In this document: positions 7,407 through 26,061 of the stretch, piece after piece
How positions within the stretch are numbered: the stretch's first letter is position 1
How the letters are laid out: each line of letters starts with the position of its first letter
Source of the DNA: Pseudomonadota bacterium
GTDB lineage: Bacteria; Desulfobacterota; Binatia; UBA9968
DNA: 64,000 nt
NCBI GenBank assembly: GCA_021324155.1
Contig: JAJPJQ010000018.1
Span: 124,001-188,000 of the forward strand
Reading direction: 5' to 3'
Notes under the pieces: generated by a model
Database searches by the model: none
What the model saw: the letters and a program-made list of their open reading frames with translations, nothing else
Told to the model about the DNA's origin: nothing
Made by a program: the position numbers and the translations under genes

Positions 7407-7429
7407 TTCTTCAAAGATAGGAGCGAATG

Positions 7430-8815
7430 ATGCCATTTTCCGACCTGCGACAATACCTAAACAGGCTTGAAAAGCTGGGCGATCTCGCCCGCGTGAAAAA
7501 AGAAGTCGATCCGAAATACGAGATCGGCGCGATCTGCAAGACCGCGCACGATCGGGGACGAAAAGCGCTCTTCTTCGAGCGCGTGCGCGGCTGCAGCATG
7601 CCTGTGATCGTCGATCTGCTCGCGACCTTCAACCGCATCGCGACGGCGATCGAGACGCAGGAGACCGACCTCTTCAAGGAAGTCGTCGAGCGAACCAAAG
7701 AAGGCGTCGAGCCCAGGATCGTGAAGAGCGGACCGTGCAAAGATATCATCATCAGAGGCAAGGACGTCGATCTCACGACGCTCCCCTGGATCACCTGGAA
7801 CAAGACCGAAAAATCGCCCTATATCACGGCGGGCATGGTGATCGTCAAAGATCCCGAATACGGCCGGAACATGGGCGTTTACCGCATGATGTATGCCGAC
7901 AAGAACCACACGTTCCTTCGTCTCAGCCCCGGGCACCACGGCTACGAATATTATAAAGCCGCCGAGCTCCGCGGCGAAAAGCGCTTCGAGGTCGCCGTCG
8001 CACTCGGCGCCGACCCGACGGTCTTTCTGGCGTCGCAGTTCGTGCCCGGCATCGACGTCGACGAGTTCACGATTGCCGGCGCGCTCCGACGCGAGCCGGT
8101 GGAACTCGTAAAATGCGAGACCGTCAACATCGAAGTGCCGGCGACGGCCGAGATCGTCCTGGAAGGTCATCTCGACATCCCTGCGGACGTCGGCGACGAG
8201 GGGCCGTACGGCGAGTTCTGCGGCTACTCGGTCGGGACGGTGATCCGCGAGAGGCTTTGGACGATCGACTGCATCACGATGCGACGCGATCCCATCTACC
8301 ACGGCTTTTACCTCTGTAAAGGCATCAACGAGGAGGGCGTGATCAAGAGCCTCACGACCTCGGTGCAGATCTACAATGAAATGAAGCCCGGCCATCCGGC
8401 GATCAAGCGCGTTCACTGCAGCGAAGCCGGCATCGGAATTTTCCATTGCTACATCCAGATCGACGAGCGCATGAAGCGGCCGGGGATGGTGAACAACATC
8501 CTGGCGTCGTCGGTCGGCGTCAAGGGAAGCCGCGTCAAGCACGTCTTCGTCTTCGACGACGACATCGATATCACGAATCCCGAGGAGGTCGAGTGGGCCT
8601 TCGCCACGCGCGTGCAGGCGGACAAGGACATCTTCGTGATCCCGAATTCGTTCGGCCTGCGCCTCGATCCGTCGGCGACTTCCGAGGGCGTCACCGCGAA
8701 GCTCTTCGTCGACGCGACCAAGGGCAAAAACTTCCGCTCCGAAGGATTAGCGCTGCCGCCTGACGACGTGTGGCAGAAGGTAAAGCAGAACTGGGACAGC
8801 TACTTCGTCGGGTAG
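7430..8815 (+). CDS. UbiD family prenylated-FMN-dependent decarboxylase (second copy)
   Basis: A 461-residue UbiD paralogue. It starts with FSDLRQYLNRLEKLGDLARV, carries MGVYRMMYADKNHTFLRLSP in the cofactor region and EGPYGEFCGY at about residues 257-266 with both conserved glutamates. It differs strongly from the first copy, so the two are not a recent duplication and may act on different substrates or form a mixed complex. Of two adjacent ATGs (7427 and 7430), 7430 is better spaced (6 bases) from TAGGAG at 7418-7423. It lies in the same operon as the binding proteins on both sides. Confidence 0.9.
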   Translation: MPFSDLRQYLNRLEKLGDLARVKKEVDPKYEIGAICKTAHDRGRKALFFERVRGCSMPVIVDLLATFNRIATAIETQETDLFKEVVERTKEGVEPRIVKSGPCKDIIIRGKDVDLTTLPWITWNKTEKSPYITAGMVIVKDPEYGRNMGVYRMMYADKNHTFLRLSPGHHGYEYYKAAELRGEKRFEVAVALGADPTVFLASQFVPGIDVDEFTIAGALRREPVELVKCETVNIEVPATAEIVLEGHLDIPADVGDEGPYGEFCGYSVGTVIRERLWTIDCITMRRDPIYHGFYLCKGINEEGVIKSLTTSVQIYNEMKPGHPAIKRVHCSEAGIGIFHCYIQIDERMKRPGMVNNILASSVGVKGSRVKHVFVFDDDIDITNPEEVEWAFATRVQADKDIFVIPNSFGLRLDPSATSEGVTAKLFVDATKGKNFRSEGLALPPDDVWQKVKQNWDSYFVG

Positions 8816-8826
8816 ATCAGCCGGAA

Positions 8827-9834
8827 ATGACCTATTCGCTACGCACCGGCCGCACCCGCATCGCGCTCGCGCTGGCCGTCGCGATTCTATTCGTTGTGCC
8901 GAGCGGTCTGTTCGCCGAGGAACCGCGCATTCGCGCGGCGTATTCGGCGATGAGCGGCTCGATGGCGTGGGTATGGGCGGCGAAGGAGGGCGGCTACTTC
9001 GAGAAGCATAAGCTCAACGTCGATCTCATCTACGTCGGCGGCACTGCACAGCTCTTTCAGTCGATGCTCGCCGGTGAGATAGGTTTCGGCGTCGGCGGCG
9101 GCCCGTCGATCCTCTATGCGAACGCGCAGCGGCGCTCGATCGTCGCCGTCGCGGGCACGATGAACCGCATGGTGATGAAAATCATGGGCTCGCCGCAGAT
9201 CAAGAGCGCCGCCGATCTCCGCGGCAAGCGCATCGCCGTCACGCGCTACGGCACGAGCACCGATTTTTCGGCGCGGCTATTTCTGAAAAGCTGGGGGCTC
9301 GCGCCCGACAAAGATACGGCGATCCTTCAGATGGGCAGCGTCCCGAGCGTGCTCGCGGCTTTGCAGAACCGCGCTACCGAAGCCGGAGCGCTTTCTCCGC
9401 CGGCTCATCTGCAAGCGGAAAAAGCGGGATTCGTGGAGTTGATGGATTTGTCGAAGGGCGACATTTACTATCCGTATACTTACGTGACCGCGACGCCGGG
9501 GTTTCTCGAGCAGAACCGCGCCGTCGTCGCGCCGTTTCTCGCGGCCTGCATCGAAGGCATCCATCGCTTCAAGACGGACAAGCCGTTCGCGAAAAAGCTC
9601 ACGGCGAAATATCTGCGCATCCAGGACGACAAAGTGCTGGAGGATACGCACCAGCTTTTCGCCGAGCTGTTCGAGCGCGCGCCGTATGTGAAACGCGAAG
9701 GTCTCGCGAGCCTGGTGCAGATCCTGGCGGAGAAAGAACCGAAGATCGAAAGCATCAAGACCGATTCGCTCGTCGACGACCGCTTCGTGCGCGAGCTGGA
9801 AACGAGCGGCTTCATCAAGAATCTTTATCGATAA
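8827..9834 (+). CDS. ABC transporter substrate-binding protein, NMT1/SsuA family
   Basis: A 335-residue binding protein with a signal peptide ending near GLFAEE (residue 27 or so). Family features are WVWAAKEGGYFEKHKLNV, LRGKRIAVTRYGTSTDFSA and a conserved tail VRELETSGFIKNLYR. ATG 8827 is selected because it begins the leader; upstream in-frame codons belong to the end of the UbiD gene. It sits between the second UbiD and the crotonase, in the same direction, and no permease is nearby. Confidence 0.83.
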   Translation: MTYSLRTGRTRIALALAVAILFVVPSGLFAEEPRIRAAYSAMSGSMAWVWAAKEGGYFEKHKLNVDLIYVGGTAQLFQSMLAGEIGFGVGGGPSILYANAQRRSIVAVAGTMNRMVMKIMGSPQIKSAADLRGKRIAVTRYGTSTDFSARLFLKSWGLAPDKDTAILQMGSVPSVLAALQNRATEAGALSPPAHLQAEKAGFVELMDLSKGDIYYPYTYVTATPGFLEQNRAVVAPFLAACIEGIHRFKTDKPFAKKLTAKYLRIQDDKVLEDTHQLFAELFERAPYVKREGLASLVQILAEKEPKIESIKTDSLVDDRFVRELETSGFIKNLYR

Positions 9835-11969: not shown

Positions 11970-12929
11970 TTACAAGCCGAGCTCTTTAGCAGCCTGCTTG
12001 ACGAATGAAAAGTCGACCAGGTCGGCAACGCGACTCGTGTTCTTACTCTTCGTTTGCTCGGCGATCCGCTTGAGCTCGGATTGCACTTCCTGATCCGTCA
12101 GCGACAGCGTAGGATTCAGGGTTTCCATCGCGGCATCGTACGCTTCCTCCGCGATTGCTAGCTCCAGCTTATACTGACGGGAAATGAACCGGATCATGTC
12201 CGGTCTGCGACTCACCGCGAACTGCACCGCGCGCAGCATCGCTCTGGCGGCGCGCCGCACATTATCGGGATTTCGCTCCAGCTTCTCTCGCGAGGCCACA
12301 AGTCCCGTCGTCGGCCACGCGCCGAGGAGATTCGCCGCGCGGGCGAGCTCTCTAAACCCTAGCCGCTTCGCCATGACGCTGTAAGGCGGCGTCAGCGCGA
12401 CGGCGCTGAGGCCGCCCTGCTGAAGCGTAAGGAAACCGTTGGCGACGTCGCCGGTCGAGACGATCTGCACGTCTTTCTCCAGACCGTAGTGCTTGAGCAT
12501 GTCGTAGACCATGTAGAATTGTGTGCCCTGATTCCCGCCGACGCCGACGATCTTTCCTTTGAGATCTTCGATGCGCCGCAGATCCTTCTGGCCTATGATC
12601 CAGAGGTCGGCCTTGTTGTTCGTGTTGGCCACCATCTTGAGCGGCGCGCCGTTGACCGCGGCGCGGAGCGCGGACCCGCCGGCGGTCGTGTAGTCGACGC
12701 TGCCCGTGGTCAGCGCGAGGATGCCGACATTGGTGCGCATGACGATGATCTCGACGTCCAGACCTTCGCGCGCGAAGAAGCCCTCTTTCGCCGCCAGATG
12801 AATCGGCCACGCGGAAAGTCCGGGGGAGGAGGGCGCGATGCGCGTTTTCTCGGCCGATACGTCGGAGCACAACGCGGAGAGCAGGAGAAGACCGGCGAGA
12901 ACAGAGCCGCCGACGCGGCTAGAGTCCAT
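11970..12929 (-). CDS. ABC transporter substrate-binding protein, NMT1/SsuA family
   Basis: A 319-residue binding protein on the minus strand. The signal peptide is SVLAGLLLLSALCSDVSA, about residues 9-26. Family motifs are WPIHLAAKEGFFAREGLDV and LKGKIVGVGGNQGTQF. It is the last gene of the minus-strand block and overlaps the end of the amidohydrolase gene by 11 bases (12919-12929), so translation is coupled. As elsewhere here, there is no cognate permease or ATPase, and the partner may be encoded outside the window. Confidence 0.83.
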   Translation of the reverse strand: MDSSRVGGSVLAGLLLLSALCSDVSAEKTRIAPSSPGLSAWPIHLAAKEGFFAREGLDVEIIVMRTNVGILALTTGSVDYTTAGGSALRAAVNGAPLKMVANTNNKADLWIIGQKDLRRIEDLKGKIVGVGGNQGTQFYMVYDMLKHYGLEKDVQIVSTGDVANGFLTLQQGGLSAVALTPPYSVMAKRLGFRELARAANLLGAWPTTGLVASREKLERNPDNVRRAARAMLRAVQFAVSRRPDMIRFISRQYKLELAIAEEAYDAAMETLNPTLSLTDQEVQSELKRIAEQTKSKNTSRVADLVDFSFVKQAAKELGL

Positions 12930-13935
12930 ACAGCGCTTTGGAATTGTCGTAGAGAATCTTGTCGATGACGCGGCCGTCCACCTCGCCTTTGTCCTTCAGA
13001 TTGCGCAGGGCGTCGATTTCGGCCGCCGAGTCGACGTGGCTGTAGTCGGAGCCGATGACGATGTTGTCTTCACCGGAATATTTCAGGATGTAGGGCAGGT
13101 CGTCGTCGGTCTGACAGGTTACGTAAAGGCGATTCGCGCGCATCAGATCGGGGCCGACCGGACGGTTGAGCTTTAAGAAGCGCTTGCGCAAATCGATCAT
13201 GAGATACGGAATCCATTGCGCCCTAATCTCGATGAACGCGAATCTCAGCCGCGGAAATTTATCCGGCACGCCTTCGTAAACCAGGGAGTGGAAGGCGGAG
13301 AGGACCGGCAGCTTGAATTTCGAGAAGCCGCCTTCGTCGCTGAAGAGGTCGACCCAGTCGAAATTTCCCGTCGAGGCGTGAACGCAGATCGGCAGGTCCA
13401 GCTTCTCGGCTTCTGCATAGAGCGGGAAAAAATAGGGATCGCTGAGTCTCTTGTCTTCAACCAAACCGCGGGTGAATAGACCGCAGCCGCCGTTCTCTTT
13501 CGCGAAGCGCGCCTCCGCGATCGCCGCGTCGATGCTCGTCATCGGCATCACGGCGACCCAGGGAAGGCGCCGCTCGCCTTTTCTCCAGATGTCCGCAAGC
13601 CAGCGATTGTAACTCTTTGAAATGGCGCGGTCGACTTCGGCGCGGGCCGTGAGCGGCCGTAAAAAAATCGACGGGTAAAGCACCTGAATATCGATGCCGA
13701 GCTCGTCCATGTGCCTGAGCCGTAGCTCGATGTCTTTCATCTCGCGCGAGGCTTCGGGAATTTTGCGGTTGACGTTGCCGCCGCGCGAATAAATTTTACC
13801 GTCGATCAGCCAGTCTTTCTTACCGTCGACGCTCGGCGACGCCAGCACCGGCCTGAACTCGGCGTCGCCGCTGTCCATGTAGTCCCACGTGCGCTCGGTT
13901 TCGATGACGTGCGCATCGGCATCGATGGTCGGCAT
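12919..13935 (-). CDS. Amidohydrolase-2 family metal-dependent hydrolase/decarboxylase
   Basis: A 338-residue TIM-barrel protein of the amidohydrolase-related family (PF04909 type), which includes ACMSD, LigW-type decarboxylases and LigJ hydratases. The first metal site is DADAHVIE with Asp in place of the first His; further motifs are ICVHASTGN and the catalytic Asp in VIGSDYSHVDS. ATG 13935 begins MPTIDADAH and is preceded by GGAGGATCC; longer upstream frames only read back through the neighbour. A paralogue lies immediately upstream with 11 bases between, so this is a tandem duplication. Hydrolysis or decarboxylation of an aromatic or amino-carboxylate is possible. Confidence 0.85.
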   Translation of the reverse strand: MPTIDADAHVIETERTWDYMDSGDAEFRPVLASPSVDGKKDWLIDGKIYSRGGNVNRKIPEASREMKDIELRLRHMDELGIDIQVLYPSIFLRPLTARAEVDRAISKSYNRWLADIWRKGERRLPWVAVMPMTSIDAAIAEARFAKENGGCGLFTRGLVEDKRLSDPYFFPLYAEAEKLDLPICVHASTGNFDWVDLFSDEGGFSKFKLPVLSAFHSLVYEGVPDKFPRLRFAFIEIRAQWIPYLMIDLRKRFLKLNRPVGPDLMRANRLYVTCQTDDDLPYILKYSGEDNIVIGSDYSHVDSAAEIDALRNLKDKGEVDGRVIDKILYDNSKALYGL

Positions 13936-13946
13936 ATCGGATCCTC

Positions 13947-14987
13947 CTATAGCCCGTAAAGCGCCGCCGCGTTGTGCCCTAAGATCTTGTCGATTGACGC
14001 GCCAGGAATTTTCCCGTCCGATTTGAGCTTTCTGAGCGCGTTGATCTCCGATGCCGTATCGTTGTGGCCATAGTCGGTGCCGATGACCAAGTTGTCGTCG
14101 CCGACGTGTTCGAGGACGTATGGCAGGTCGTCGCTCGTCTGGCAGGCGACGTAAATGCGGTTGTCCTTCAGGAGTGCCGTGCCCGGCCATTCTTTGCCTT
14201 GGCGCCGGTAGCCGATCTCCACGTGATTCATGACATAGGGCAGCCATTCGGCGCTGACCTCCACGAACGCCCAGCGGAGATCGGGAAATCTCTGCGGCAG
14301 GCGGCTCGTGATGAGTGTGCCGAAGAGATTGATCGGGCCGAACTTGAACTGGCCTAGGCTCGCGCCGCGCCCAAGAACGTCGAACATGTCGAGGTTGCCT
14401 TGCGATGCGTGCACGCAGATCGGCATGTTCAGCCGGCTCGCTTCCTCATAAATCGGAAAGAAGTACGGATCCGTCGGCAGCTTGTCACCCTCGACCCCGC
14501 GGATAAAGACGCCGCAAGCGCCATTGTCTTTGCCGAAATTGAGCTCTTCGATTGCTTTGTCGATGTAGTGTAGCGGCGGAATCACGACCCATCGTAGTCG
14601 TCCTCCGCCGGCTTTCCAAATCTCCGCAAGCCACCGATTGTAGCTGCGACAGAGCGCTGTATCGACATGGGGCAGCGGAGTCAGCATACGCAGAAACAGG
14701 CTCGGGTAAAGCACCTGCTTATCGACGCCGAGCTCGTCCATGTGCGCGAGACGCGCATGGATGTCCTCCGCCTCGCGTCTTTCTCTGGCGATGTCGTGGC
14801 CGATGTTGGCGTCCTTAGCGAAAACCCGGCCGCCGATCATCCAGTATTCGTTCGCCCGCTCAGGCGGCTTGCGCGTCTTATCTTTAAACACCATCACGTA
14901 CGGCGCGAAGGCGCGCTCGGCCTCGTCCATGTAGTCCCAAGTCTTTTCCCACTCTACGACGTGGGCGTCGGCATCGATAACCGCCAT
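13947..14987 (-). CDS. Amidohydrolase-2 family metal-dependent hydrolase/decarboxylase (tandem paralogue)
   Basis: A 346-residue paralogue of the downstream gene, sharing IDADAHV, EKTWDYM, MDELG, QVLYPSLFLR and the tail DKILGHNAAALYGL. Metal and catalytic residues appear intact: DADAH, ICVHASQGN and IGTDYGHNDTAS. It is the first gene after a 222-base gap on the minus strand, which holds a perfect TATAAT at 15016-15011 and a motif shared with another promoter region. The two paralogues might form a heteromer or process related compounds. Confidence 0.85.
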   Translation of the reverse strand: MAVIDADAHVVEWEKTWDYMDEAERAFAPYVMVFKDKTRKPPERANEYWMIGGRVFAKDANIGHDIARERREAEDIHARLAHMDELGVDKQVLYPSLFLRMLTPLPHVDTALCRSYNRWLAEIWKAGGGRLRWVVIPPLHYIDKAIEELNFGKDNGACGVFIRGVEGDKLPTDPYFFPIYEEASRLNMPICVHASQGNLDMFDVLGRGASLGQFKFGPINLFGTLITSRLPQRFPDLRWAFVEVSAEWLPYVMNHVEIGYRRQGKEWPGTALLKDNRIYVACQTSDDLPYVLEHVGDDNLVIGTDYGHNDTASEINALRKLKSDGKIPGASIDKILGHNAAALYGL

Positions 14988-15209: not shown

Positions 15210-16303
15210 CTAACGATTCGTACAAAACGGATGATAGGCCATTTGACATTTTGCTCCGGCTTTTCTCAGCCGTTCTTCGAATTCCTCATGGATGTTAGGG
15301 TCTTCGTCCTCGTACTCGATCTGATCGCCGCCTTCTTTGACGCTCTTGTAAATGTACGCCTTGCCGCCCGCCTTGGGCTTATCGCTTCCCCAGCCGATGG
15401 CGAGGAAGAAAACCGGCTCGGCACTGCCGTTGAAATGTTGATGGAACCACATCTCCGGCGGAACAAAGACGCTTCCCGGACCCCATTCGACGCGTTCCAT
15501 GGCTTTGCCTTCCTGCCACATGAGCGAGTAGCCGTGCCCGCGGATTATCAAAACATGGATGCCGGGTCCGTGGCGATGCGCCTTTTTATAAGCGCCGACG
15601 CCCCAGAGCGAGACGTGCGATTTGACGGTGTTGTTGACCATGCGGAAGACAGTGCTCTTCGCGCCGCCGCCGCGGTCGAATCCGCCGGAGTACGTCTGGC
15701 ATACGCGAACATCGGCGACGAAGTTAGTCGACCATTGCTGCGCCGAAGCCTTTTCTTTGAAATAGCCCTCCTCGGCGTTGTACCGATCGCGGAAGATGAA
15801 CGGATTTTCGAAGACGAATTCATGATTATTGAACGTGTCGATCACGCGCGGGCGCTCGTCATCGCGATATAGCGCGCCGGATCGAGACCGGAGACGTTGT
15901 GATGCTCGTGCCAGGCATTCATCGGGATCGAGAAATAGCTGCCTTCCTGCCACTCGAAAGTCTCCTTGCGTGCGGGATCGATCCAGACAGACGTGGCTCC
16001 TTGGCCTTTGAGAATATAAATCGTCTCTTCGAAAAGGTGACGGTGCGGCTTGAGCGACTTGCCCGGCGGAATCTCGGCCACATACGCGTCGTTGAATCCA
16101 CCGGTGCCTTCGAGATTGACAAACGTCGCCAGTCCTTCGCCGCTCGAGCGCCACGGTGTAAGCTCGACGTCGTAGAGATTCTTGACGAACAATCCGCGCA
16201 GCGTCGGCAGACCCTCCGATTCCTTCCACTGTTCGTAAGGCGACTTGTAGGCGATGCGCTCTTTGACTCCGTCTTCGGCGGTTTTTCCTGCTGCTTCAGG
16301 CAT
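15210..16303 (-). pseudogene. Double-cupin protein gene with a one-base frameshift
   Basis: Read from ATG 16303 the protein starts MPEAAGKTAEDG and gives a first cupin domain (HRHLFEETIYILKGQG) up to a TGA at 15844-15842. The following frame continues RVIDTFNNHEFVFENP and a second cupin (AHRHGPGIHVLIIRGHG, FHQHFN) to a TAG at 15210. The intact paralogue at 2936-4009 aligns across the whole length. Adding one base in the G run at 15850-15852 (a C in the coding strand) restores TSAPRVIDTF, matching TNAPAVFNMF of the paralogue with no gap. So this is either a recent single-base lesion or a sequencing error. It is the second gene of the minus-strand block after the TenA-like gene. Confidence 0.8.
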
Positions 16304-16328: not shown

Positions 16329-17009
16329 TTACTCGACATCGGCGATCGCATTCGCGAGCGCGCCGCGGAAGGCGCGATCAATCACGAGGCAATCGCGCGT
16401 CGCCGCCACAACCGCCGCGGCCGCGGCCGTGCCGTCGATATAACGCGCGAAGATCGGCTCGAAGAGATCCGAGTGCTCTTCGTCGGCGACGGCATGAACC
16501 TCGGTCTGGAAATCCTTCGCGGCTTCTTTGATACCGAGCTCCGTTTGCTGTTTTCGCTTCCAGCGCTCCGACAGCCCGCCGCCTTTGACGACAGCGTTAT
16601 TGTTGCGACGCTCGAGAATATGGGAATACACGAGGCCTTCGAGCCACGGTTTTTCGCGAGCGCAGTAAAGCCACGCGTAGAAGGCCGCCTTCGCGCCGGG
16701 AACAAGCAGCGACTCGTCGCGCTCCCGCAGGTCCTCCTCCCTAACATGGGCGCGCCCCATGCGTGGGTCGTGAATCAATTCGTCTTTTTCGTGTTCCCAG
16801 ATAGCGCGTTTCACCTCGAGCGGCGCCTTTCCGGAAACGAATGCCCAGCAATCGCGCCGGTTCGCACCGTAATAGGTCATGTGATGACGGTAGACCCGCA
16901 CGCGCTCGGGCGTAAGCGGTACGGCGAGGAGTTTTTTGAACTCCGGGCTGTCGAACTGCTGGTTGACCATCTCATCAATCCGCGGACGGATCTCAAGCCA
17001 TTGTGACAT
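16329..17009 (-). CDS. TenA/PqqC-fold (haem-oxygenase-like) protein, possible diiron or cofactor-free oxygenase
   Basis: A 226-residue, mostly helical protein starting MSQWLEIRPRID. It has the helical-bundle features of the haem-oxygenase-like fold used by TenA, PqqC and CADD-type diiron proteins. Candidate metal ligands include the Glu and His residues in WEHEKDELIHDP, EGLVYSHILERR and HAVADEEHSDLF; the last resembles the ExxxH-type C-terminal motif of that superfamily. ATG 17009 has GAGGAACGC immediately upstream and is preferred to longer starts. It lies 25 bases upstream of the frameshifted cupin. The exact reaction is unknown. Confidence 0.65.
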   Translation of the reverse strand: MSQWLEIRPRIDEMVNQQFDSPEFKKLLAVPLTPERVRVYRHHMTYYGANRRDCWAFVSGKAPLEVKRAIWEHEKDELIHDPRMGRAHVREEDLRERDESLLVPGAKAAFYAWLYCAREKPWLEGLVYSHILERRNNNAVVKGGGLSERWKRKQQTELGIKEAAKDFQTEVHAVADEEHSDLFEPIFARYIDGTAAAAAVVAATRDCLVIDRAFRGALANAIADVE

Positions 17010-17296
17010 GCGTTCCTCGCTTTCCGTTGGTTCAATTCGACGTGATTCGATAAAGTTTCGCCGCGTTCGTCCGGAGGATCTTGTGGCGGTCGCTCGCGCG
17101 ACTCCGTCGAAGCTTTCCGCCACCGCCTCCCGCCTCCTCCCGCGTGCGCGATTCTCGCGAACGCTGAAAGCCGGAAACTCTTGCGCGAAATATATATATT
17201 CAAGGCGACTAGTTTTGCCAAGCCTAAGAGAGCCAAGGTTGACCCGCTCATGGGGTTGGGATAAACGCATCTATCGAACGAAAGGAGAACGATTGC
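17010..17296. other. Divergent intergenic region with regulatory motifs
   Basis: This 287-base gap separates the minus-strand TenA-like gene from the plus-strand NMT1-like gene. It contains an AT-rich TATATATATT at 17191-17200, copy A of the shared motif at 17211-17244, and a TTGACC -35-like box at 17239-17244 followed by ATAAAC. I see no ORF with a ribosome site. The plus-strand gene has AAAGGAG at 17280-17286. Confidence 0.45.
17211..17244. promoter_or_regulatory. Putative operator, copy A of a motif shared with 15066-15100
   Basis: AGTTTTGCCAAGCCT is followed after 12 bases by GTTGACC. The TTGACC end (17239-17244) could act as the -35 box for the gene at 17297, with a weak AT-rich -10 (GATAAA, TAAACG) 15 to 17 bases on. 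Two direct GCCAAG elements lie inside (17217-17222 and 17232-17237). The arrangement suggests a regulator that works on both minus-strand promoters and the plus-strand gene. Confidence 0.4.
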
Positions 17297-18223
17297 ATGG
17301 CGCAGCGCAAACTTAAAATCAGCGGCGTTTACCGCTCGGCCAGCCATCTGCCGATGTGGGAGGTTCTGCAAGAGGCGGATATTTGGGGACAGGCCGGCTT
17401 GGAACTGACGAATTTCGAGTACTGCGCGATGCCCCCAGACGCCGAGGCAGCGCTGTTCAAAGGCGAGATTGACTTCATCTCAGGAGACCACCTGACCCCC
17501 TACGGTCTCGTCGTCAAAGGAAAGCCGATCGTCAGCCTGGCATCGCCGGTTAACGGGCAGAACGCCTGCGTCGCATCGCACGAGCCGCTCAATTCCATTC
17601 AGGATCTCCGCGGCAAGCGGATCGCGGACACCGCGATGGAGGGTAGAGACGGGGGATTTCATCACGGCCGCGGAAACCACATGATGTATTTGATCCGCAA
17701 CGGCATCGCCATCGATCAGGTGAAATGGATTGAAGACGAAGACTCCGACGCGCAGCTCGCCGCGTTCAAGTCCGGCAAAGCGGATGCCCGCTTTATCTCT
17801 GCCAATGCTACCGAGCGCTATAAAGACATGGGCTTTCACGTGCTGCCGCTCGGCCCGCTGCCGATGATCAACGGCCCGACGCTCACGACCTCGTATACGG
17901 TGTTGCACAAGAAAAAGGACCTGGGCGAGCGCTTGGTCAAGGCGTTAGTACTGGGAATTCATTACGCCAAGACGAAAAAAGCGAAGACGGAAAAAATCCT
18001 GCAGAACCTGAGCAAGAAGAAGGGTGAAACGTATCACTATCGATTCTTCGACCGCGTGCCGAAGAAGCCCTATCCCGACCCGCAAGGCGTCATCAACGCG
18101 TACGAGCTGGGCTGCATCAAGTCGCCCGAGGCGAAGCAGCTGAGCCCACTCGCTTTGTGGGATCTGCACTATCTGCGGGAGATCGACAACTCCGGATACA
18201 TCGATAAACTGTATCGGAATTAA
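17297..18223 (+). CDS. NMT1/THI5-like substrate-binding-fold protein without signal peptide
   Basis: A 308-residue protein with the two-lobe NMT1 fold pattern (PMWEVLQEADIWGQAGLEL, DLRGKRIADTAMEG, tail REIDNSGYIDKLYRN). Unlike the other family members in this window it starts directly with MAQRKLKISGVYRS and has no hydrophobic leader, and AAAGGAG upstream of ATG 17297 supports that start. A cytoplasmic location is therefore expected. A His-rich stretch GFHHGRGNHMMY at about residues 117-128 is unusual. Candidate roles are an enzyme (as THI5 and 4,5-dihydroxyphthalate decarboxylase in this fold) or a ligand sensor. It leads into the peptide ABC operon. Confidence 0.72.
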   Translation: MAQRKLKISGVYRSASHLPMWEVLQEADIWGQAGLELTNFEYCAMPPDAEAALFKGEIDFISGDHLTPYGLVVKGKPIVSLASPVNGQNACVASHEPLNSIQDLRGKRIADTAMEGRDGGFHHGRGNHMMYLIRNGIAIDQVKWIEDEDSDAQLAAFKSGKADARFISANATERYKDMGFHVLPLGPLPMINGPTLTTSYTVLHKKKDLGERLVKALVLGIHYAKTKKAKTEKILQNLSKKKGETYHYRFFDRVPKKPYPDPQGVINAYELGCIKSPEAKQLSPLALWDLHYLREIDNSGYIDKLYRN

Positions 18224-18285
18224 AGGCGCGAATGGACTCGTATGATCATGATAGCTGCAATTCGGTGTTCGGTCGGAGGCTCACC

Positions 18286-19833
18286 ATGAAGCGTCTGCTA
18301 GTTCTCATCTTACTTTTAATCCCATTTTTTTGGGAGCGATTAGGCGAAGGCGCCTCCAATCAGCCGAAGCGCGGCGGCACTCTCACGCTCGCGGTTAGCA
18401 AAGAGCTGGCGCTGATGAATCCCCTGGTCAACACGAGCTCGACCGAATCGAGAATTCGCGAGCTGATGTTCGAGCCGCTGCTCGGCAAAGACGCGAGGGG
18501 AGCAATCAAGCCGCGTCTGGCGGAGTCCTGGGAGATAAGCAAGGACGGCAAGGTTTATACGTTTCGCCTGCGCAAAGGCGTCAAGTTCCACGATGGCAGG
18601 GAGATGACCGCCGACGACGTCAAGTTCGCCATCGACTACACGCTCAATCCCAAAAACGGGGCCTACGGATTTGCCGACATGGAGGCGGTCGACAAAGCCG
18701 AAGTGGCCGACAAGTACACGCTTAAAGTTTCCCTTAAGAAAATCAATCCGTTGTTCCTGACCTTGTTGACTGACATCCGCGCTTTCTCGGTCGTGCCCAA
18801 AGAATCGCTGCCGGAGGGCATGAGAAAACCCGCCAGCTTTCCTCCGGGGACCGGTCCCTTCAAGTTCGTTGAATGGAAGCCGGGCCAGCGCGTCGTCTTC
18901 GAGCGCTTCGCCGATTATTGGGGCGAAAAGGCTTTCGTGGACCGCGTCGTCATGCGCGAGATCGCGGACGCGACCGTGCGCTTCACAGCCTTGCAAGCCG
19001 GCGACGTCGACATCATCGAACGCACCCCCTACGAGTGGGTGCAGCAGATCGTGCAGGGAAAAATCAAAGATATCGGCTACGCCACAGCCAAGCAGGCGGG
19101 CGCACGCAACCTCGAGTTCAACGTCGCCGATCCGCCGTTCAATAACAAAAAGCTTCGCCTGGCGATCGCCCACGCCATCGATAGAAAAGAGATTATACAG
19201 GCCGCATATTTCGGCCTTGCGGAGACGAGTGATCAGAGATTCCCCAAGGACAGCATCTGGTACTTCGACGTCCCCGCCCCGAAGTATGACCTGAACAAGG
19301 CGAAGGCTTATCTGAAAGAAGCCGGATACAAAGGTGAGACCTTGGAGCTCATGGGCAATCGAGGGGAAGTCGCCGAAGTGGAAGGCGCCATCATTCAGGC
19401 CCAGCTCAAAAAAGTCGGAGTCAAAGTCGAGCTAAAGATCCTGGAGCGAGCCTCGGCGCTCGAAGCCCGTCGGCAGGGGAAATATATGTTCAAGTTAGCC
19501 GGCGGGAGCGACTATCCGGACCCTCTGCCCGCCTACTCGGAATATTCGTGCGAGCCCGATCCCAAAGATCGCCATCTCAACGAGACGGCTTACTGCGACA
19601 AGGAGTACGACGCCTTGATGAAGAGAGCCGAGCTCGAAGTCGACCTGGAGAAGCGCAAGGCGCTCTTCAAGCAGGTCGTGGCCAAAGTCCTGGACGATTC
19701 GCCGGTTGTCGCGATCGGCTTCACGCCGCGCTTTTTTACCTTCCGCAGCTACGTTAAGGGATTCGCGACCAATTCGGCGGGAGATTTCCAACCTTTTATC
19801 GGGGGCTTGAGCCGGGCTTGGATCGATAAGTAG
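18286..19833 (+). CDS. Dipeptide/oligopeptide-type ABC transporter substrate-binding protein
   Basis: A 515-residue SBP_bac_5 protein. The signal peptide is KRLLVLILLLIPFFWERLGEG near residues 2-22. Family features include LAESWEISKDGKVYTFRLRKG, KFHDGREMTADDVKFA, and EVDLEKRKALFKQVV near the end. ATG 18286 has CGGAGG at 18274-18279 and begins the leader; upstream codons are not part of it. It is the first gene of a complete five-gene importer (binding protein, two permeases, two ATPases). Such systems carry peptides but also opines, nickel or glutathione, so the ligand is open. Confidence 0.88.
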   Translation: MKRLLVLILLLIPFFWERLGEGASNQPKRGGTLTLAVSKELALMNPLVNTSSTESRIRELMFEPLLGKDARGAIKPRLAESWEISKDGKVYTFRLRKGVKFHDGREMTADDVKFAIDYTLNPKNGAYGFADMEAVDKAEVADKYTLKVSLKKINPLFLTLLTDIRAFSVVPKESLPEGMRKPASFPPGTGPFKFVEWKPGQRVVFERFADYWGEKAFVDRVVMREIADATVRFTALQAGDVDIIERTPYEWVQQIVQGKIKDIGYATAKQAGARNLEFNVADPPFNNKKLRLAIAHAIDRKEIIQAAYFGLAETSDQRFPKDSIWYFDVPAPKYDLNKAKAYLKEAGYKGETLELMGNRGEVAEVEGAIIQAQLKKVGVKVELKILERASALEARRQGKYMFKLAGGSDYPDPLPAYSEYSCEPDPKDRHLNETAYCDKEYDALMKRAELEVDLEKRKALFKQVVAKVLDDSPVVAIGFTPRFFTFRSYVKGFATNSAGDFQPFIGGLSRAWIDK

Positions 19834-19843
19834 CGAGCGCCTC

Positions 19844-20809
19844 ATGCTTGCGCGTTATGTCGTTCGCCGCATTTTGCAGCTCATCCCTGTTCTTGTTTTA
19901 GTAAGTCTGGCGGTATTTCTTCTCGTTCGCGTCATCCCCGGCGATCCGGTGCTCGTTATGATGGGCATCGATCAGGACGAGCGCGCGCGCATCACCCCCG
20001 AGCAATATCGAGTGCTGCAACACCAGATCGGCCTCGACAGACCGATCTACGTTCAATATCTCAACTGGGCCGATAAAATCGTTCATGGCGATTTCGGTCT
20101 CTCGCTGGCGACGCGCCGGCCGATCGTCGAAATCATCTTCGAGCGTTATCCAGCGACGCTTTATCTTGCCGCGACCGCATTACTCGTCGGGCTTGCGATC
20201 GCTATCCCCGCCGGCGTGATCGCGGCGGTCAAACAGAATACCAAGATAGACTACGCCGCGATGGGCTTTGCGCTGTGGGGCGTCGCCATGCCGGATTTCT
20301 GGCTTGCGCTCATGCTGATCGTTCTTTTCAGTTTGAAATTAGGGTGGCTGCCTTCCATCGGGTACGCCAGTCCCTTTGACAACGCGGGTCTTTTTTTACA
20401 GCACGCCTGTCTGCCGGCGATCGTAATGGGCACTGAGCTCGCTGCGCCGCTGACGCGCTACGTCCGCGCGGAGATGCTCGACCAGCTCAGGCAGGATTAC
20501 GTGCGCACGGCATGGGCGAAAGGCTTGCCGTCGCGCATGGTGATCGTGAAACACGCGCTGAGAAACTCGCTGATCGCGGCGGTCACCGTCGTGGGCTTGC
20601 AGACGGCGCGGTTGCTGGGCGGCGCGACGATCATCGAGACGATATTCTCCTGGCCCGGCGTCGGACGGCTCCTAATCGACGGCATCTACCAGCGCGACTA
20701 TCCGATCGTGCAGGGCGCTGTATTACTGATTGCCGTGACGTATGTCTTCATTAATCTGATCGTCGACATTTTCTACAAGTGGCTCGATCCACGCATCAAG
20801 CTCGAATAG
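19844..20809 (+). CDS. ABC transporter permease, DppB type
   Basis: A 321-residue inner-membrane protein with six expected helices. It starts with the DppB-typical MLARYVVRRILQLIPVLVLVS followed by VIPGDPVLVMMG, and contains the EAA-type cytoplasmic loop TAWAKGLPSRMVIVKHALRN that docks on the ATPase. It lies 10 bases after the binding-protein stop and precedes the DppC-type permease in the same operon. Confidence 0.9.
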   Translation: MLARYVVRRILQLIPVLVLVSLAVFLLVRVIPGDPVLVMMGIDQDERARITPEQYRVLQHQIGLDRPIYVQYLNWADKIVHGDFGLSLATRRPIVEIIFERYPATLYLAATALLVGLAIAIPAGVIAAVKQNTKIDYAAMGFALWGVAMPDFWLALMLIVLFSLKLGWLPSIGYASPFDNAGLFLQHACLPAIVMGTELAAPLTRYVRAEMLDQLRQDYVRTAWAKGLPSRMVIVKHALRNSLIAAVTVVGLQTARLLGGATIIETIFSWPGVGRLLIDGIYQRDYPIVQGAVLLIAVTYVFINLIVDIFYKWLDPRIKLE

Positions 20810-20819
20810 GAAACAACGC

Positions 20820-21719
20820 GTGAGCCAAGAGACCTTAACGCCCGCAGTATTGACGGTGACCGAGAAAGGGGTATCGACTTCGCGATTTGTCGACGCCTTG
20901 CGAGTCATCGCTCGCAACCGCCTCGCGCTGCTCGGACTATTCATCGTCTCGGTTGGAATTTTCGCGGCGATTCTCGCGCCGTGGATCTCCACGCACGATC
21001 CCTATGAGATCAACATCGCCGGTCGCCTCCAGGCGCCGAGCGCGCAGCATTGGCTTGGTACCGACTTCCTCGGCCGCGATACCTACAGCCGCATTGTTTT
21101 CGGCGCACGCACGGCGTTCATCATTGCCGCGGGCGCCGTCTTTTTGGGAGCTCTCTTCGGTGTTCCGCTCGGCGCGATCGCGGGATTTCGCGGGCGGTGG
21201 ATCGATTCGACGATCATGCGCTTCATGGACGCTATCATGGCGTTTCCCGGACGGCTCCTCGCCATCGCGCTGGTTGCGTCAGCGGGGGGCGGCTTTACGT
21301 CGCTTTTCATTGCGCTGGGTCTCGGCGCCATCCCGTCGAACGCCCGTATCGTCCGTAGCGCCGTGCTCGCGCAAAAGGAAAGGGAGTACGTCGAGGCTGC
21401 GCGGATGTCCGGAGAATCCGATTTCGGCATCCTTTTCTTGCAGGTGTTACCGAACTGCCTCTCGCCGCTGCTCGTGCGCTTGAGCCTGGAATTCGCCCAC
21501 GCGATTCTCGCGGAATCTTCTCTTAGCTTTCTGGGGCTCGGGCTTCCGCCGCCGACGCCCAGCTGGGGATTGATGCTCAAGGAAGTCACACCGTTCTTAC
21601 AGCTCCAGCCGCTCGCGGCGTTTTTTCCAGGCTTGACGATCTCGCTGATTATCCTTGGCTTCAATCTTCTGGGCGACGGTCTGAGAGATATTTTCGACCC
21701 GCGGCAGTACGAGCGGTGA
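20820..21719 (+). CDS. ABC transporter permease, DppC type
   Basis: A 299-residue permease that starts with GTG 20820. The N-terminal tail, the ARNRLALLGLFIVSVGIFAAILAP helix region, HWLGTDFLGRDTYSRIVFGA and the EAA-like loop EYVEAARMSGESDFGILF are diagnostic for DppC/OppC. Its stop overlaps the possible GTG start of the next ATPase (GTGA at 21716-21719). It would pair with the DppB-type permease in the membrane. Confidence 0.9.
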   Translation: MSQETLTPAVLTVTEKGVSTSRFVDALRVIARNRLALLGLFIVSVGIFAAILAPWISTHDPYEINIAGRLQAPSAQHWLGTDFLGRDTYSRIVFGARTAFIIAAGAVFLGALFGVPLGAIAGFRGRWIDSTIMRFMDAIMAFPGRLLAIALVASAGGGFTSLFIALGLGAIPSNARIVRSAVLAQKEREYVEAARMSGESDFGILFLQVLPNCLSPLLVRLSLEFAHAILAESSLSFLGLGLPPPTPSWGLMLKEVTPFLQLQPLAAFFPGLTISLIILGFNLLGDGLRDIFDPRQYER

Positions 21720-21721
21720 CC

Positions 21722-22693
21722 ATGGACGCGCCTTTGCTCGAGGTGAAGAACCTCACGATTCGCTTTCATCTCCAACGCGGCGTTTTGAGCGCCGTTCAGA
21801 ATGTCTCCTTTTCATTACGCGCAGGAGAGACGCTCGGCATCGTCGGCGAGACCGGCTGCGGCAAGACGGTCACGTCGCTGTCGATTTTGCGTCTGATTCC
21901 TTGCCCTCCCGGCAACATCGCCGGCGGAGAAATCTTGTTCCACGGCGAGGACCTGCTAAAAAAAAGTGAACGTGAGATTGAGAAGATCCGCGGCAGGAAG
22001 ATCTCGATGATCTTTCAGGAGCCGATGACGTCACTAAACCCGTCGCTTACGGTGGGCGAGCAGATCAGCGAGTGCTACCGCGTCCATATGGGCCACTCCG
22101 GCAAAGTAGCGCGGGAATTCACCGAACATGCCTTGTCTCTGGTGCAGTTGCCTTCGCCGCAGACCGTCGCCGGCCGCTATCCGCATGAGCTTGCCGGTGG
22201 CATGCGCCAGCGGGTGATGATCGCGATGGCGCTCGCCTGTCAGCCCGAAATCCTGATCGCGGACGAGCCGACGACAGCGCTCGACGTCACGATTCAGGCG
22301 CAAATCCTGGAGCTCTTAAAAGAGCTGCAGACGAAAATGAAAATGGCTTTGATATTTATTTCTCACAATCTCGGCGTCGTGGCGCGTCTGTGCGACCGGA
22401 TCGGTGTCATGTACGCAGGATCGCTGGTGGAGCTGTCGGACAAGAAATCATTGTTCACGCATCCTCTGCACCCATATACGCAGGCGCTACTCAACGCGAT
22501 TCCGCGACCGGATCTCCGCGACGAAACGCTCAAGGCGATTCCCGGCTCGGTTTGCAACCTTTTCGATCCGCCACCCGGATGCAAGTTTCATCCGCGCTGC
22601 GCGAAGGCGAAAGAACTCTGCAAAACGGAGATGCCGCGATTGGAAGCCAAGAGCGGCGAAAATCTCGCCGCGTGTTATTTCCCCGGTGCATGA
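21722..22693 (+). CDS. ABC transporter ATP-binding protein, DppD type
   Basis: A 323-residue ATPase. Walker A GETGCGKTV, signature AGGMRQRVMIA, Walker B ILIADEPTTALD and the switch region FISHNLGVVARLCD are present. The C-terminal oligo/dipeptide extension holds HPYTQALLNAIP and a Cys set (SVCNLFDPPPGC, HPRCAKAKELC) found in this family, which can bind an iron-sulphur cluster. ATG 21722 is favoured over GTG 21716. It overlaps the next ATPase by ATGA at 22690-22693. Confidence 0.9.
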   Translation: MDAPLLEVKNLTIRFHLQRGVLSAVQNVSFSLRAGETLGIVGETGCGKTVTSLSILRLIPCPPGNIAGGEILFHGEDLLKKSEREIEKIRGRKISMIFQEPMTSLNPSLTVGEQISECYRVHMGHSGKVAREFTEHALSLVQLPSPQTVAGRYPHELAGGMRQRVMIAMALACQPEILIADEPTTALDVTIQAQILELLKELQTKMKMALIFISHNLGVVARLCDRIGVMYAGSLVELSDKKSLFTHPLHPYTQALLNAIPRPDLRDETLKAIPGSVCNLFDPPPGCKFHPRCAKAKELCKTEMPRLEAKSGENLAACYFPGA

Positions 22694-23655
22694 TGCTCGA
22701 AGTCAAAAACCTCACCAAGTATTACGATATCAGCGGCGGTCTTATGAGCCGTCTCTCGGCGGGGCTCAAGCTTCTCAAGGCGGTCGATCATATCGGTTTC
22801 TCCGTGCCGGAGGGAAAGACTTTCGGTCTGGTCGGCGAGAGCGGTTGCGGGAAATCGACGACGGCGCGGCTCATCACTCGTCTCATCCCCGCGACCGAGG
22901 GGGAAGTTTTCTTTCAGGGACGGGATATCCTGCGCCTTCCCAAGCGTGAGATGCGGGAGCTTCGCAGGCACGTCCAGATGATTTTTCAGGATCCTTACGC
23001 CTCGCTCAATCCGCGCATGAGAATTATTGAAGTTGTCGGACGTCCTTTGAGCCATTTTCAGGGACTCAAGGGGCGCAAACGGCGCGACCGCGCGGCGGAG
23101 CTGCTCGACCTCGTCGGCCTGCGCCCGGAACAGCTGGACCGCTATCCGCATGAGTTCAGCGGCGGCCAGCGGCAGCGCATCGGCATCGCCCGTGCGCTCG
23201 CGGCCGGGCCCAAGCTTATCATCGCCGACGAGCCGGTCTCCTCGCTCGACGTTTCCGTTCAGGCGCAGGTACTGAACCTCCTCAAGAAGCTTCAGCGCGA
23301 ACTCAAGCTGAGCTTAATCTTCATATCCCATGATTTGAATGTCGTTGGATATTTGGCGGATATCGTGGCTGTCATGTACGCGGGGAAGATCATGGAGATC
23401 GCTCCGGTCGCGCAGATCTTCAACGCGCCTTTGAATCCTTATACCAAAGCGCTTTTAGCTTCGAATCCGACGGTCGGCTCCTACATGGAAACCGTTCGAT
23501 CGCCGCTCAAGGGAGAAGTTCCGCTGCCGGTCAATCCGCCTTCCGGGTGCCGTTTGGAGCCGCGCTGTCCGATTCGCGTCGATAGGTGCAAGACGATCGA
23601 GCCCATGTTGGAAGAAAAGAGAACACTGCATCGCGTGGCCTGCCACGAGGTGTGA
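22690..23655 (+). CDS. ABC transporter ATP-binding protein, DppF type
   Basis: A 321-residue ATPase. It has Walker A GESGCGKSTTA, signature FSGGQRQRIGIA, Walker B LIIADEPVSSLD and a C-terminal LNPYTKALLASNP with Cys residues (GCRLEPRCPIRVDRC). The start overlaps the DppD-type stop. It forms the heterodimeric motor with the upstream ATPase. This is the only DppDF pair in the window and could also serve the second importer at 44920-48630, which lacks ATPases. Confidence 0.9.
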   Translation: MMLEVKNLTKYYDISGGLMSRLSAGLKLLKAVDHIGFSVPEGKTFGLVGESGCGKSTTARLITRLIPATEGEVFFQGRDILRLPKREMRELRRHVQMIFQDPYASLNPRMRIIEVVGRPLSHFQGLKGRKRRDRAAELLDLVGLRPEQLDRYPHEFSGGQRQRIGIARALAAGPKLIIADEPVSSLDVSVQAQVLNLLKKLQRELKLSLIFISHDLNVVGYLADIVAVMYAGKIMEIAPVAQIFNAPLNPYTKALLASNPTVGSYMETVRSPLKGEVPLPVNPPSGCRLEPRCPIRVDRCKTIEPMLEEKRTLHRVACHEV

Positions 23656-23752: not shown

Positions 23753-24925
23753 ATGGAAATAAAATTTGGCCTCATCAGCGCGGACTCGCACGCGGCCTTC
23801 CATCGCGACGACTTTACCTCGCGTATGTCAGCGCGAAAGTGGGGCGACCGCATCCCGCATGTCTCGCGGAAAAAAGATGAGAGCAAGGCCGTCGACGGCT
23901 GGAGCATCTACGGCCAGCCGCCGCGCGGCGATGTATGCAATTGCCCTGCGGTGATGGGCGATCCGTTTCCGACCTGGCCCAAAGTTTGGGAGGAAGTGCC
24001 GGCGCTAGCGTTCGATCCGAAAGAGCGACTCAAGGCGCTTGACGTCGACGGCGTCGATGCCGAGGTGCTTTTCCCCAATCCTCCCGGCGGCTCGTATTAT
24101 GAATACGGCGATGCCGAATTCGAGCTCGCCTGCGTGCGGACCTATAACGACATACTCGCCGAATGGCGCCGCGCGAGTGACCGGTATTTGCCGCTCGTCG
24201 CTCTGCCGCTTTTGAGCGAGCCGCAAGCTGTTGCCGCTGAAATCGAGCGCGCGGTCACGAACGGTCACCGCGGTGTGAACGTGCCGGGTAAGATGCCGAA
24301 GGCGCTCCCGCACATCGCCGCTCCGCACTGGTATCCTGTATGGGAGGTTTGCGAAAAGCTCAACGTGCCGATTCACTTTCACGGCTCGGCGAATCTGGAT
24401 ACCGCCGCATCGGCGAAAAAGTGGAGCGGCTACTCCGTCCGCCAGGCGCATTCCGCGGCCACCAGCACCTCGGCGGTTACTCCGGCGCAGATCATCCCGC
24501 ATTTTGTTTTCTCCGGCATCACCGAGCGCTTTCCGCGGCTTAAAATTGTTTTCGCCGAGGCCGGCATCGGCGGCCTCAACTATGTCATCGCCGCGTGCGA
24601 TCACGAGTGGGAGACGCGGCGTCTGTGGACGCACGGCCTGGCAACGCGGCCGAGCGAGGCGGTTCGCCGTCAGATGTTCGTCAACTTCTGGTTCGAGGCT
24701 GAAGGCATCAAGCTGCGCGATGATATCGGCGTTGATAATATCATGTGGGAATCGGATTTCCCGCACGTGGCCTCCTACTACCCGCGTTCGTGGCACGAGG
24801 TCGAGCGCGTTCTCGACGGCGTCTCGGCCGCCGATCGACGTAAGCTTCTCTACGAGAACGCAATGAAAGTCTACGACATTGAAGCAACTGTCAGAATCAG
24901 CGAGACTCCTTCGGCAGCCGTTTAG
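23753..24925 (+). CDS. Amidohydrolase-2 family metal-dependent hydrolase/decarboxylase
   Basis: A 390-residue TIM-barrel protein starting MEIKFGLISADSH. The metal-site motif is ADSH (Asp-x-His variant), then IHFHGSANLD and the catalytic Asp in MWESDFPHVASYYP. An insert near residues 60-75 includes DVCNCPAVMG. It is the first gene of block 4 after a 97-base gap and is followed 11 bases later by a related amidohydrolase. Sequence similarity to the pair at 12919-14987 is low, indicating a separate subfamily. Confidence 0.84.
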   Translation: MEIKFGLISADSHAAFHRDDFTSRMSARKWGDRIPHVSRKKDESKAVDGWSIYGQPPRGDVCNCPAVMGDPFPTWPKVWEEVPALAFDPKERLKALDVDGVDAEVLFPNPPGGSYYEYGDAEFELACVRTYNDILAEWRRASDRYLPLVALPLLSEPQAVAAEIERAVTNGHRGVNVPGKMPKALPHIAAPHWYPVWEVCEKLNVPIHFHGSANLDTAASAKKWSGYSVRQAHSAATSTSAVTPAQIIPHFVFSGITERFPRLKIVFAEAGIGGLNYVIAACDHEWETRRLWTHGLATRPSEAVRRQMFVNFWFEAEGIKLRDDIGVDNIMWESDFPHVASYYPRSWHEVERVLDGVSAADRRKLLYENAMKVYDIEATVRISETPSAAV

Positions 24926-24936
24926 TCGGGTCAATA

Positions 24937-26061
24937 ATGCAGCTGCAAAAAGGTTTCATCAGCGTCGACGATCATGTCCAGGAGCCGCCGGATCTTTGGA
25001 CGACACGGCTGTCGAAAAGCCGCTGGGGCGAGCGCATCCCACATATCGAGCGTACCAACGGCGCGGAGCGTTGGATTGTTGACGGCGTAGTGCTGCTCGA
25101 CGGTGCCCCGGCAAGGGTCGCGGGTCTTATGGAGGATCGCAACCACGAGCCGAAGCGCTGGGAAGAAGTTCCGCCGGCCGCTTATCGCCCGAGCGAACGG
25201 CTTAACGCCATGGATGCGGTCGGCGTTGATTATTCGGTGCTCTATCCGACGGTCGCCGGATCTGCGGGACAGAACTTCGCCCGCCTCAAAGATCCGGATC
25301 TCGAGCTCGCGTGCGTGCAGGCGTACAATGACTGGATCATCGAGGAATGGCGAGCAGCCAGCGACCGCTTCATTCCGCAATGCATCGTGCCGATCTGGCC
25401 GCCGAAGGCTGCGGTGGCGGAAATCGAGCGCGCCGTCGCGAAAGGCCATCGCGGGGTTATTTTCCCGGCTGTCCCCATGGACCTCCGCGACGTACCGCAT
25501 GTCGCCGAATCAGAATACGATCCTATCTGGGCCGCCTGCGAGCGCTTGGGCGTTCCGCTCTGCCTGCACGCGGGTCCATCGCCGAAACTCCAGTACGCTC
25601 CGTATTCGGGTCTCGCGCCTGAGCTGACGCAAGCCCTCGAAGCAGTGACGAAGCCGGTCTCAAGCGTGTTTATTCTTGGGCTATATATTTTCTCGCGTGT
25701 GCTGCTGCGCCATCCCAAGCTGCGCGTTGTGCTCGCCGAAAGCGCGCTCAGCTGGGGCATGCTCTATCTTGAATGGGCCGATCACCAGTTCGATCACGAC
25801 GGCCTTATCCGCGAAGGATACGAACTCACGCCGTCGCAGATGTTTCGGCGGCAATGCTACCTGAACGCGTGGTACGACGAGATCGCTCCGTTCGAGCCGT
25901 ACATCGGCGCCGAGCACATCCTGTGGTCGACGAATTTTCCCGCGGCGACGTCGACTTGGCCGAATACGCGCGAAACCATCGCGCGCTGCTTCCGCGGCGT
26001 CGCGCCTGAAAAGCGCGAGCTTGTGCTCTGGAAAAACGCCGCGAGCCTATATGCGTTGTGA
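24937..26061 (+). CDS. Amidohydrolase-2 family protein with altered active site
   Basis: A 374-residue homologue of the upstream gene starting MQLQKGFISVDDHVQEPPD, with LCLHAGPSP in the barrel. At the usual catalytic strand the family pattern Trp-x-Ser/Thr-Asp-Phe/Tyr-Pro-His reads WSTNFPAATSTW here, so the conserved Asp is Asn333 and the His is Ala336. The rest of the fold looks intact. It may be a non-catalytic partner of the neighbour, or have shifted chemistry. It is the second gene of an amidohydrolase pair. Confidence 0.82.
   Translation: MQLQKGFISVDDHVQEPPDLWTTRLSKSRWGERIPHIERTNGAERWIVDGVVLLDGAPARVAGLMEDRNHEPKRWEEVPPAAYRPSERLNAMDAVGVDYSVLYPTVAGSAGQNFARLKDPDLELACVQAYNDWIIEEWRAASDRFIPQCIVPIWPPKAAVAEIERAVAKGHRGVIFPAVPMDLRDVPHVAESEYDPIWAACERLGVPLCLHAGPSPKLQYAPYSGLAPELTQALEAVTKPVSSVFILGLYIFSRVLLRHPKLRVVLAESALSWGMLYLEWADHQFDHDGLIREGYELTPSQMFRRQCYLNAWYDEIAPFEPYIGAEHILWSTNFPAATSTWPNTRETIARCFRGVAPEKRELVLWKNAASLYAL

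Follow-up and report, generated by a model that had tools for sequence, protein, structure and literature searches.

Leaderless NMT1-fold proteins of one bacterial order as candidate cytoplasmic enzymes of aromatic-acid breakdown

One open reading frame of the window (the whole stretch of 64,000 nucleotides analyzed here) encodes an NMT1-fold protein without a leader and belongs to a family of 88 relatives, all apparently leaderless, from a single order-level bacterial clade. The missing leader, together with a fixed set of reactive-looking residues, suggests that the protein is probably an undescribed intracellular enzyme acting on aromatic compounds. The explanation that we prefer, at a probability of roughly one half, is that a binding protein was independently recruited as a cytoplasmic enzyme for the degradation of aromatic acids. 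It would most likely be a decarboxylase that needs no cofactor, or else a lyase that works by proton transfer in a similar way.

Leader, start codon and range of the family

The frame (Table 1) matches the NMT1/THI5-like family PF09084 with 32.2 bits (E 1.3e-7) against a curated cut-off of 20.5 and is a member by that score; above the Pfam cut-off, the scan gave this single NMT1 domain and no DNA-binding or ATPase domain. The initial annotation had the protein beginning at the first strand, leaderless and behind a good ribosome site, and this was borne out: GGAG stands nine bases before the ATG, which is separated from the preceding stop by 18 open codons (pahgvginasierkendc). No strongly hydrophobic stretch was found in these codons, which therefore do not encode a signal peptide, and an upstream alternative start with a signal peptide, which the annotation had named as speaking against its claim, was looked for and not found. 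Leader calls were made with a hydrophobicity measure and the start codons, not with SignalP. On these measures, the protein lacks the export signal peptide of an ABC transporter substrate-binding protein, and the window's five remaining NMT1 proteins all carry a hydrophobic leader, as had been stated of them. Lacking a leader, the product is probably located in the cytoplasm.

Table 1. Features of the window around the leaderless NMT1-fold gene; counts compare the family with the other NMT1 proteins of the contrast set.
Feature	Position	Strand	Basis and remarks
NMT1 proteins with hydrophobic leader	1864-2925, 4006-4977, 4991-5968, 8770-9834	+	hydrophobicity measure
Two UbiD-like decarboxylase genes	5976-8815	+	similarity label
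NMT1 protein with hydrophobic leader	11970-12929	-	hydrophobicity measure
Two amidohydrolase_2 genes	12919-14987	-	Pfam
Two-cupin (gentisate-dioxygenase-like) gene	15210-16303	-	Pfam/NCBIfam; one frameshift near 15851, genuine or an assembly error
Divergent neighbor, grouped with Haem_oxygenas_2-like proteins	16329-17009	-	similarity; no Pfam or NCBIfam match of its own; relatives adjoin subclade C members
Ribosome binding site AAGGAG	17282-17287	+	read from sequence; ATG nine bases further on
Leaderless NMT1-fold protein	17297-18223	+	sequence, ORF list and Pfam; ATG start, 308 aa
Codon of His17	17345-17347	+	86/88 versus 1/77
Codon of His65	17489-17491	+	88/88 versus 0/75
Codon of Tyr69	17501-17503	+	87/88 versus 2/77
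Codon of His123	17663-17665	+	His 76/88, Cys 12/88 versus His 1/77
Codon of Asn127	17675-17677	+	85/88 versus 0/76
Codon of Thr195	17879-17881	+	88/88 versus 6/77
Codon of Trp288	18158-18160	+	88/88 versus 1/77
Codon of His291	18167-18169	+	86/88 versus 1/77
SBP_bac_5 (DppA/NikA-type) binding protein with leader	18286-19833	+	62 bases past the stop of 17297-18223; start picked by eye within ORF 18232-19833
Two permease-like and two ATPase ORFs, overlapping	19844-23655	+	ORF list and similarity labels; permeases read from sequence alone, one ATPase ORF labelled ABC by similarity
Two amidohydrolase_2 genes	23753-26061	+	Pfam

Searches for relatives and the loci fetched with them yielded 166 distinct NMT1-like proteins, of which 165 were aligned after one short match had been dropped. 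The family was cut at more than 200 bits against a profile built from 40 of its members (88 proteins), and proteins below 170 bits formed the contrast set (77 proteins, one of them, L013, belonging to the sister subfamily F described below). A Shine-Dalgarno-like sequence with a start codon no more than nine residues before model position 1 is present in 87 of the 88 members, and the open frame preceding the domain is 20 codons or shorter in 62. A hydrophobic 11-mer (mean of at least 1.5) lies upstream in 7/88 family members versus 73/77 of the other NMT1 proteins. The smallest tree split that contains all 88 members holds exactly these 88, but its support of 0.085 is very low and leaves a single origin unproven.

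As far as the order, class and phylum-sample searches reach, the family is confined to one bacterial order. It was present in 30 of 35 genomes at order level (E 1e-50), usually in several copies per genome; at class level (E 1e-40; a looser threshold that admits other NMT1 proteins), 35 of 148 genomes matched, every one in the same order. In the phylum sample (E 1e-30), matches came from 3 of 395 genomes: the window's own, one of the same taxonomic family, and G091 from a distant family of the phylum, where four of five proteins have a leader, the fifth is leaderless, and the signature is absent. A pattern scan across 84,980 species genomes, which detects close relatives only, returned two, both metagenome-assembled genomes labelled Deltaproteobacteria. 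Searches for plasmid relatives, started from the window protein and from a single member of each of the subclades B and C, gave weak NMT1 matches only. No description of such a family was found in the literature searched, mostly titles and abstract openings plus passages of PMC13040137, PMC6100217 and PMC10848271. A further apparently leaderless NMT1-like protein (L190 6275-7198; 307-codon open frame) does not have the signature residues of the family.

Fixed residues and fold

Pocket residues are normally variable among binding proteins. In the family, eight positions are almost invariant and nearly absent from the other NMT1 proteins (Table 1), and Arg13 is similarly distributed (76/88 versus 1/74); His222, Tyr259 and others are conserved as well but are found in binding proteins too. 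The His-rich stretch to which the initial annotation had drawn attention is indeed present, but most of it is not conserved: only His123, the second His of its HH, and Asn127 are kept throughout the family, and conservation of His122 and His128 is absent outside the window protein's own subclade.

The tree was divided into five groups by the motif around position 123, namely subclades A (20 members including the window protein; xHxRGN), B (28; HxGLN), C (25; HPGLN and PHxWLN), D (12; CxxGN) and E (3). In subclade D (L007, L145, L149, L151-L158 and L174), Cys takes the place of His123, and MFS genes lie near 4 of the 12 loci. The sister subfamily F, with 8 loci scoring 140 to 169 bits, is likewise leaderless and retains Tyr69, His123, Asn267, Trp288 and His291, with Arg at position 17 and a His one column off His65; including it, the family genes number at least 96. 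Of these 8 loci (L182 7396-8391; L183-L189), 7 adjoin class II aldolase genes and an NMT1 protein that has a leader, a cassette that often includes Rieske or UbiD genes.

An AlphaFold2 model of the window protein, built from 8 sequences, had a mean pLDDT of 87 and a pTM of 0.84; its weakest region, residues 116-122 immediately before His123, fell below a pLDDT of 50. His17, His65 and His123/Asn127 lie near helix starts after the predicted strands 6-12, 60-62 and 108-111, the loops of which we take to line the cleft of the NMT1 fold, and these residues would accordingly face it. Foldseek placed binding proteins and THI5 among the best matches of the model. VIA-align gave SsuA (3uif; Z 20.8, rmsd 3.6 over 282), THI5 (Z 19.0, 4.6 over 280), CmpBCD chain C (9u9z_C; Z 18.5, 3.8 over 291), 8wm7_C, a match to the NrtC/CmpC regulatory domain (Z 17.2), 4,5-dihydroxyphthalate decarboxylase (9jp7; Z 16.4, 4.1 over 257), DszB (Z 15.7, 4.3 over 282), MqnD (Z 15.2, 3.7 over 245) and MqnA (Z 13.3). 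The structure prediction and comparison that had been proposed as a check thus place THI5 and the decarboxylase among the fold matches, which supports the earlier suggestion that a catalytic role is plausible. However, since regulatory domains and binding proteins share the modeled fold with enzymes, a resemblance in fold does not by itself decide the matter.

In profile-profile comparison (hhalign), the family scored highest, at 427, against the NMT1 proteins of its own clade. DszB, THI5 and the relatives of 4,5-dihydroxyphthalate decarboxylase were all matched less well by the family (83.7, 75.7 and 77.9, respectively) than by those NMT1 proteins (107.4, 112.7 and 93.7). When the family profile was run against PDB sequences (E up to 1), neither the decarboxylase nor DszB was retrieved; the matches were mainly binding proteins, with THI5 weakly among them. 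As the family is nearest to its clade's own NMT1 proteins and the THI5 residues are missing, it appears to have been recruited separately from SsuA/NMT1 binding proteins and not to have branched off a known family of enzymes.

Gene neighbors across the family

In the window and the three nearest orthologous loci, a gentisate-type cupin gene lies close to the family gene (4/4). Neighbors were surveyed at 86 loci, with labels transferred by similarity from Pfam-scanned representatives. Subclade A (18 loci) has Rieske genes at 10, cupin genes at 11 and amidohydrolase genes at 10; subclade B (28 loci) has Rieske genes at 10 and class II aldolase genes at 11; subclade C (25 loci) has UbiD genes at 11 and haem-oxygenase-like genes at 13, with no Rieske gene; subclade D (12 loci) has Rieske genes at 2 and UbiD genes at 3; and none of these six types was found at the 3 loci of subclade E. 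At one locus, a MocA dehydrogenase, a Rieske oxygenase, a class II aldolase, the family gene, an amidase and an amidohydrolase stand together, an arrangement that in our judgment resembles a phthalate-type cluster.

Expected numbers were derived from genome-specific counts for 55 of the 86 loci, in 11 genomes, and loci from related genomes are not independent of one another. A Rieske gene within 8 kb was five to seven times more frequent than expected in subclade A, that of the window (7/12 loci versus 1.07), and in subclade B (8/19 versus 1.55); the corresponding values were 0/13 versus 0.72 in C, 2/8 versus 0.62 in D and 0/3 versus 0.10 in E. Class II aldolase genes were near 8/19 loci of subclade B (0.83 expected) and 1/12 of A (0.54), and near none of C, D and E. 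The window's own genome by itself shows little Rieske association, with 2 of its 8 family loci near a Rieske gene, the window's locus not among them, compared with 14 of 150 listed NMT1 places within 8 kb of one.

Proposed step and alternatives

According to the explanation that we prefer, an SsuA/NMT1-type binding protein would have lost its leader and gained the fixed set of reactive residues. The adjoining ABC transporter would import an aromatic acid, oxygenases would hydroxylate it, and the family protein would use proton transfer to split a group off the ring acid, CO2 being the likeliest, in a cofactor-free decarboxylation like that of 4,5-dihydroxyphthalate decarboxylase. We infer catalysis and the kind of reaction, as well as the residue roles and the substrate class; the leaving group, and with it decarboxylation by proton transfer, is a guess. 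The proton donor could be His123, or Cys in one subclade, with help from His65, His17 and Tyr69; this, too, is guessed, by analogy with DszB, which is described in passages of PMC6100217 as protonating an aromatic carbon with Cys27 as the proton donor. What favors an enzyme is that the family is leaderless throughout, that residues of reactive type are fixed across subclades despite their differing neighbors, and that subclades A and B are enriched in Rieske neighbors and B in class II aldolase neighbors. What speaks against it is that UbiD, amidohydrolase_2 and class II aldolase proteins of the same clusters could already decarboxylate, and that Rieske neighbors are lacking in subclades C and E and at most family loci of the window's own genome, the window's included; against a decarboxylase in particular, the family is no nearer to the known one than binding proteins are.

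With that enzyme (Pht5 type), the family shares an NMT1 match in Pfam, a similar fold, the lack of a leader (in the relatives fetched) and a neighborhood of Rieske, Gfo/Idh/MocA and amidohydrolase genes. However, the decarboxylase has fixed residues of its own, in FRH and PEY..T..VW motifs, which differ from those of the family. With the motifs differing, none retrieved by the profile, and the scores given above, membership of the 4,5-dihydroxyphthalate decarboxylase family was rejected.

A bolder version, which we put forward tentatively and would not yet call likely, is a new enzyme radiation on a binding-protein fold within one uncultured order: an SsuA/NMT1 protein would have become a cytoplasmic catalyst and then multiplied, all copies sharing one new reaction but each acting on an aromatic acid of its own, at a His/Tyr/Asn site that is possibly metal-bound.

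The main rival is a cytoplasmic ligand sensor or carrier that binds the imported aromatic acid and either relays a signal to the transporter or to some regulator, in the manner of the binding-protein-like regulatory domain of NrtC/CmpC, or passes the substrate to the oxygenase. The NrtC/CmpC regulatory domains match the model well, many family members adjoin binding-protein and transporter genes, and in subclade B, NtrC-like genes and histidine kinase genes are each near 7 of 28 loci. The product is nevertheless a single NMT1 domain, without the ABC ATPase fusion of NrtC/CmpC or a DNA-binding domain, and its His/Tyr/Asn/Trp set is fixed across subclades that have different neighbors, which makes this role rather unlikely. 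Of the earlier proposal of a cytoplasmic enzyme or sensor, the location thus holds as probable and the enzyme as plausible, with the sensor a less probable alternative.

Another proton-transfer lyase of the same fold, either a desulfinase like DszB, from which SO2 would leave, or a dehydratase like MqnA, is quite unlikely. DszB, MqnD and MqnA are all in the list of fold matches, and one subclade has a Cys at position 123, although elsewhere in the fold than the Cys proton donor of DszB (passages of PMC6100217), which is in the first loop. The family has no conserved Cys in that loop and is no nearer to DszB than binding proteins are, and DszB family membership was rejected on these grounds; dszA/dszC-like neighbors were absent among the scanned neighbor genes of selected representatives. 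The window protein gave no match to the VitK2_biosynth Pfam family of MqnA/MqnD at E up to 10.

A binding protein of the ordinary kind that leaves the cell in another way, or a decayed paralogue without function, would fit the fold and the nearest sequence relatives, which are the clade's own ABC binding proteins of SsuA/NMT1 type and also share a C-terminal pattern. Those proteins, however, mostly carry a hydrophobic leader and do not have the fixed residues, whereas the family has 88 leaderless members whose frames are open and whose residues show strong conservation; we regard this explanation as improbable. A THI5-like single-turnover thiamin pyrimidine synthase, the reaction on which the initial annotation had drawn, shares the fold and a first-loop His that aligns with His17 but is highly improbable and was rejected, as Lys62 (PLP imine) and His66 (substrate), with their roles taken from passages of PMC10848271, align with Gly63 and Thr and are not conserved, the genome has ThiC, and the several copies lie, many of them, within catabolic clusters, as does the window's.

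The family may supply a further step in the degradation of aromatics by uncultured bacteria and is a natural series for the transition from binding protein to enzyme. Annotation pipelines label such genes as ABC substrate-binding proteins, even relatives of the solved decarboxylase: those found on plasmids (L175, L177-L179) mostly carry this label and adjoin Rieske, Gfo/Idh/MocA or amidohydrolase genes. In genomes with more than 150 NMT1 matches, a leader test combined with the residue signature would tell genuine binding proteins from cytoplasmic enzymes hidden among them. The window's own genome has at least 151 in 4.8 Mb, which is unusual, and first-look counts of NMT1 candidates in genomes of the same taxonomic family reach 481.
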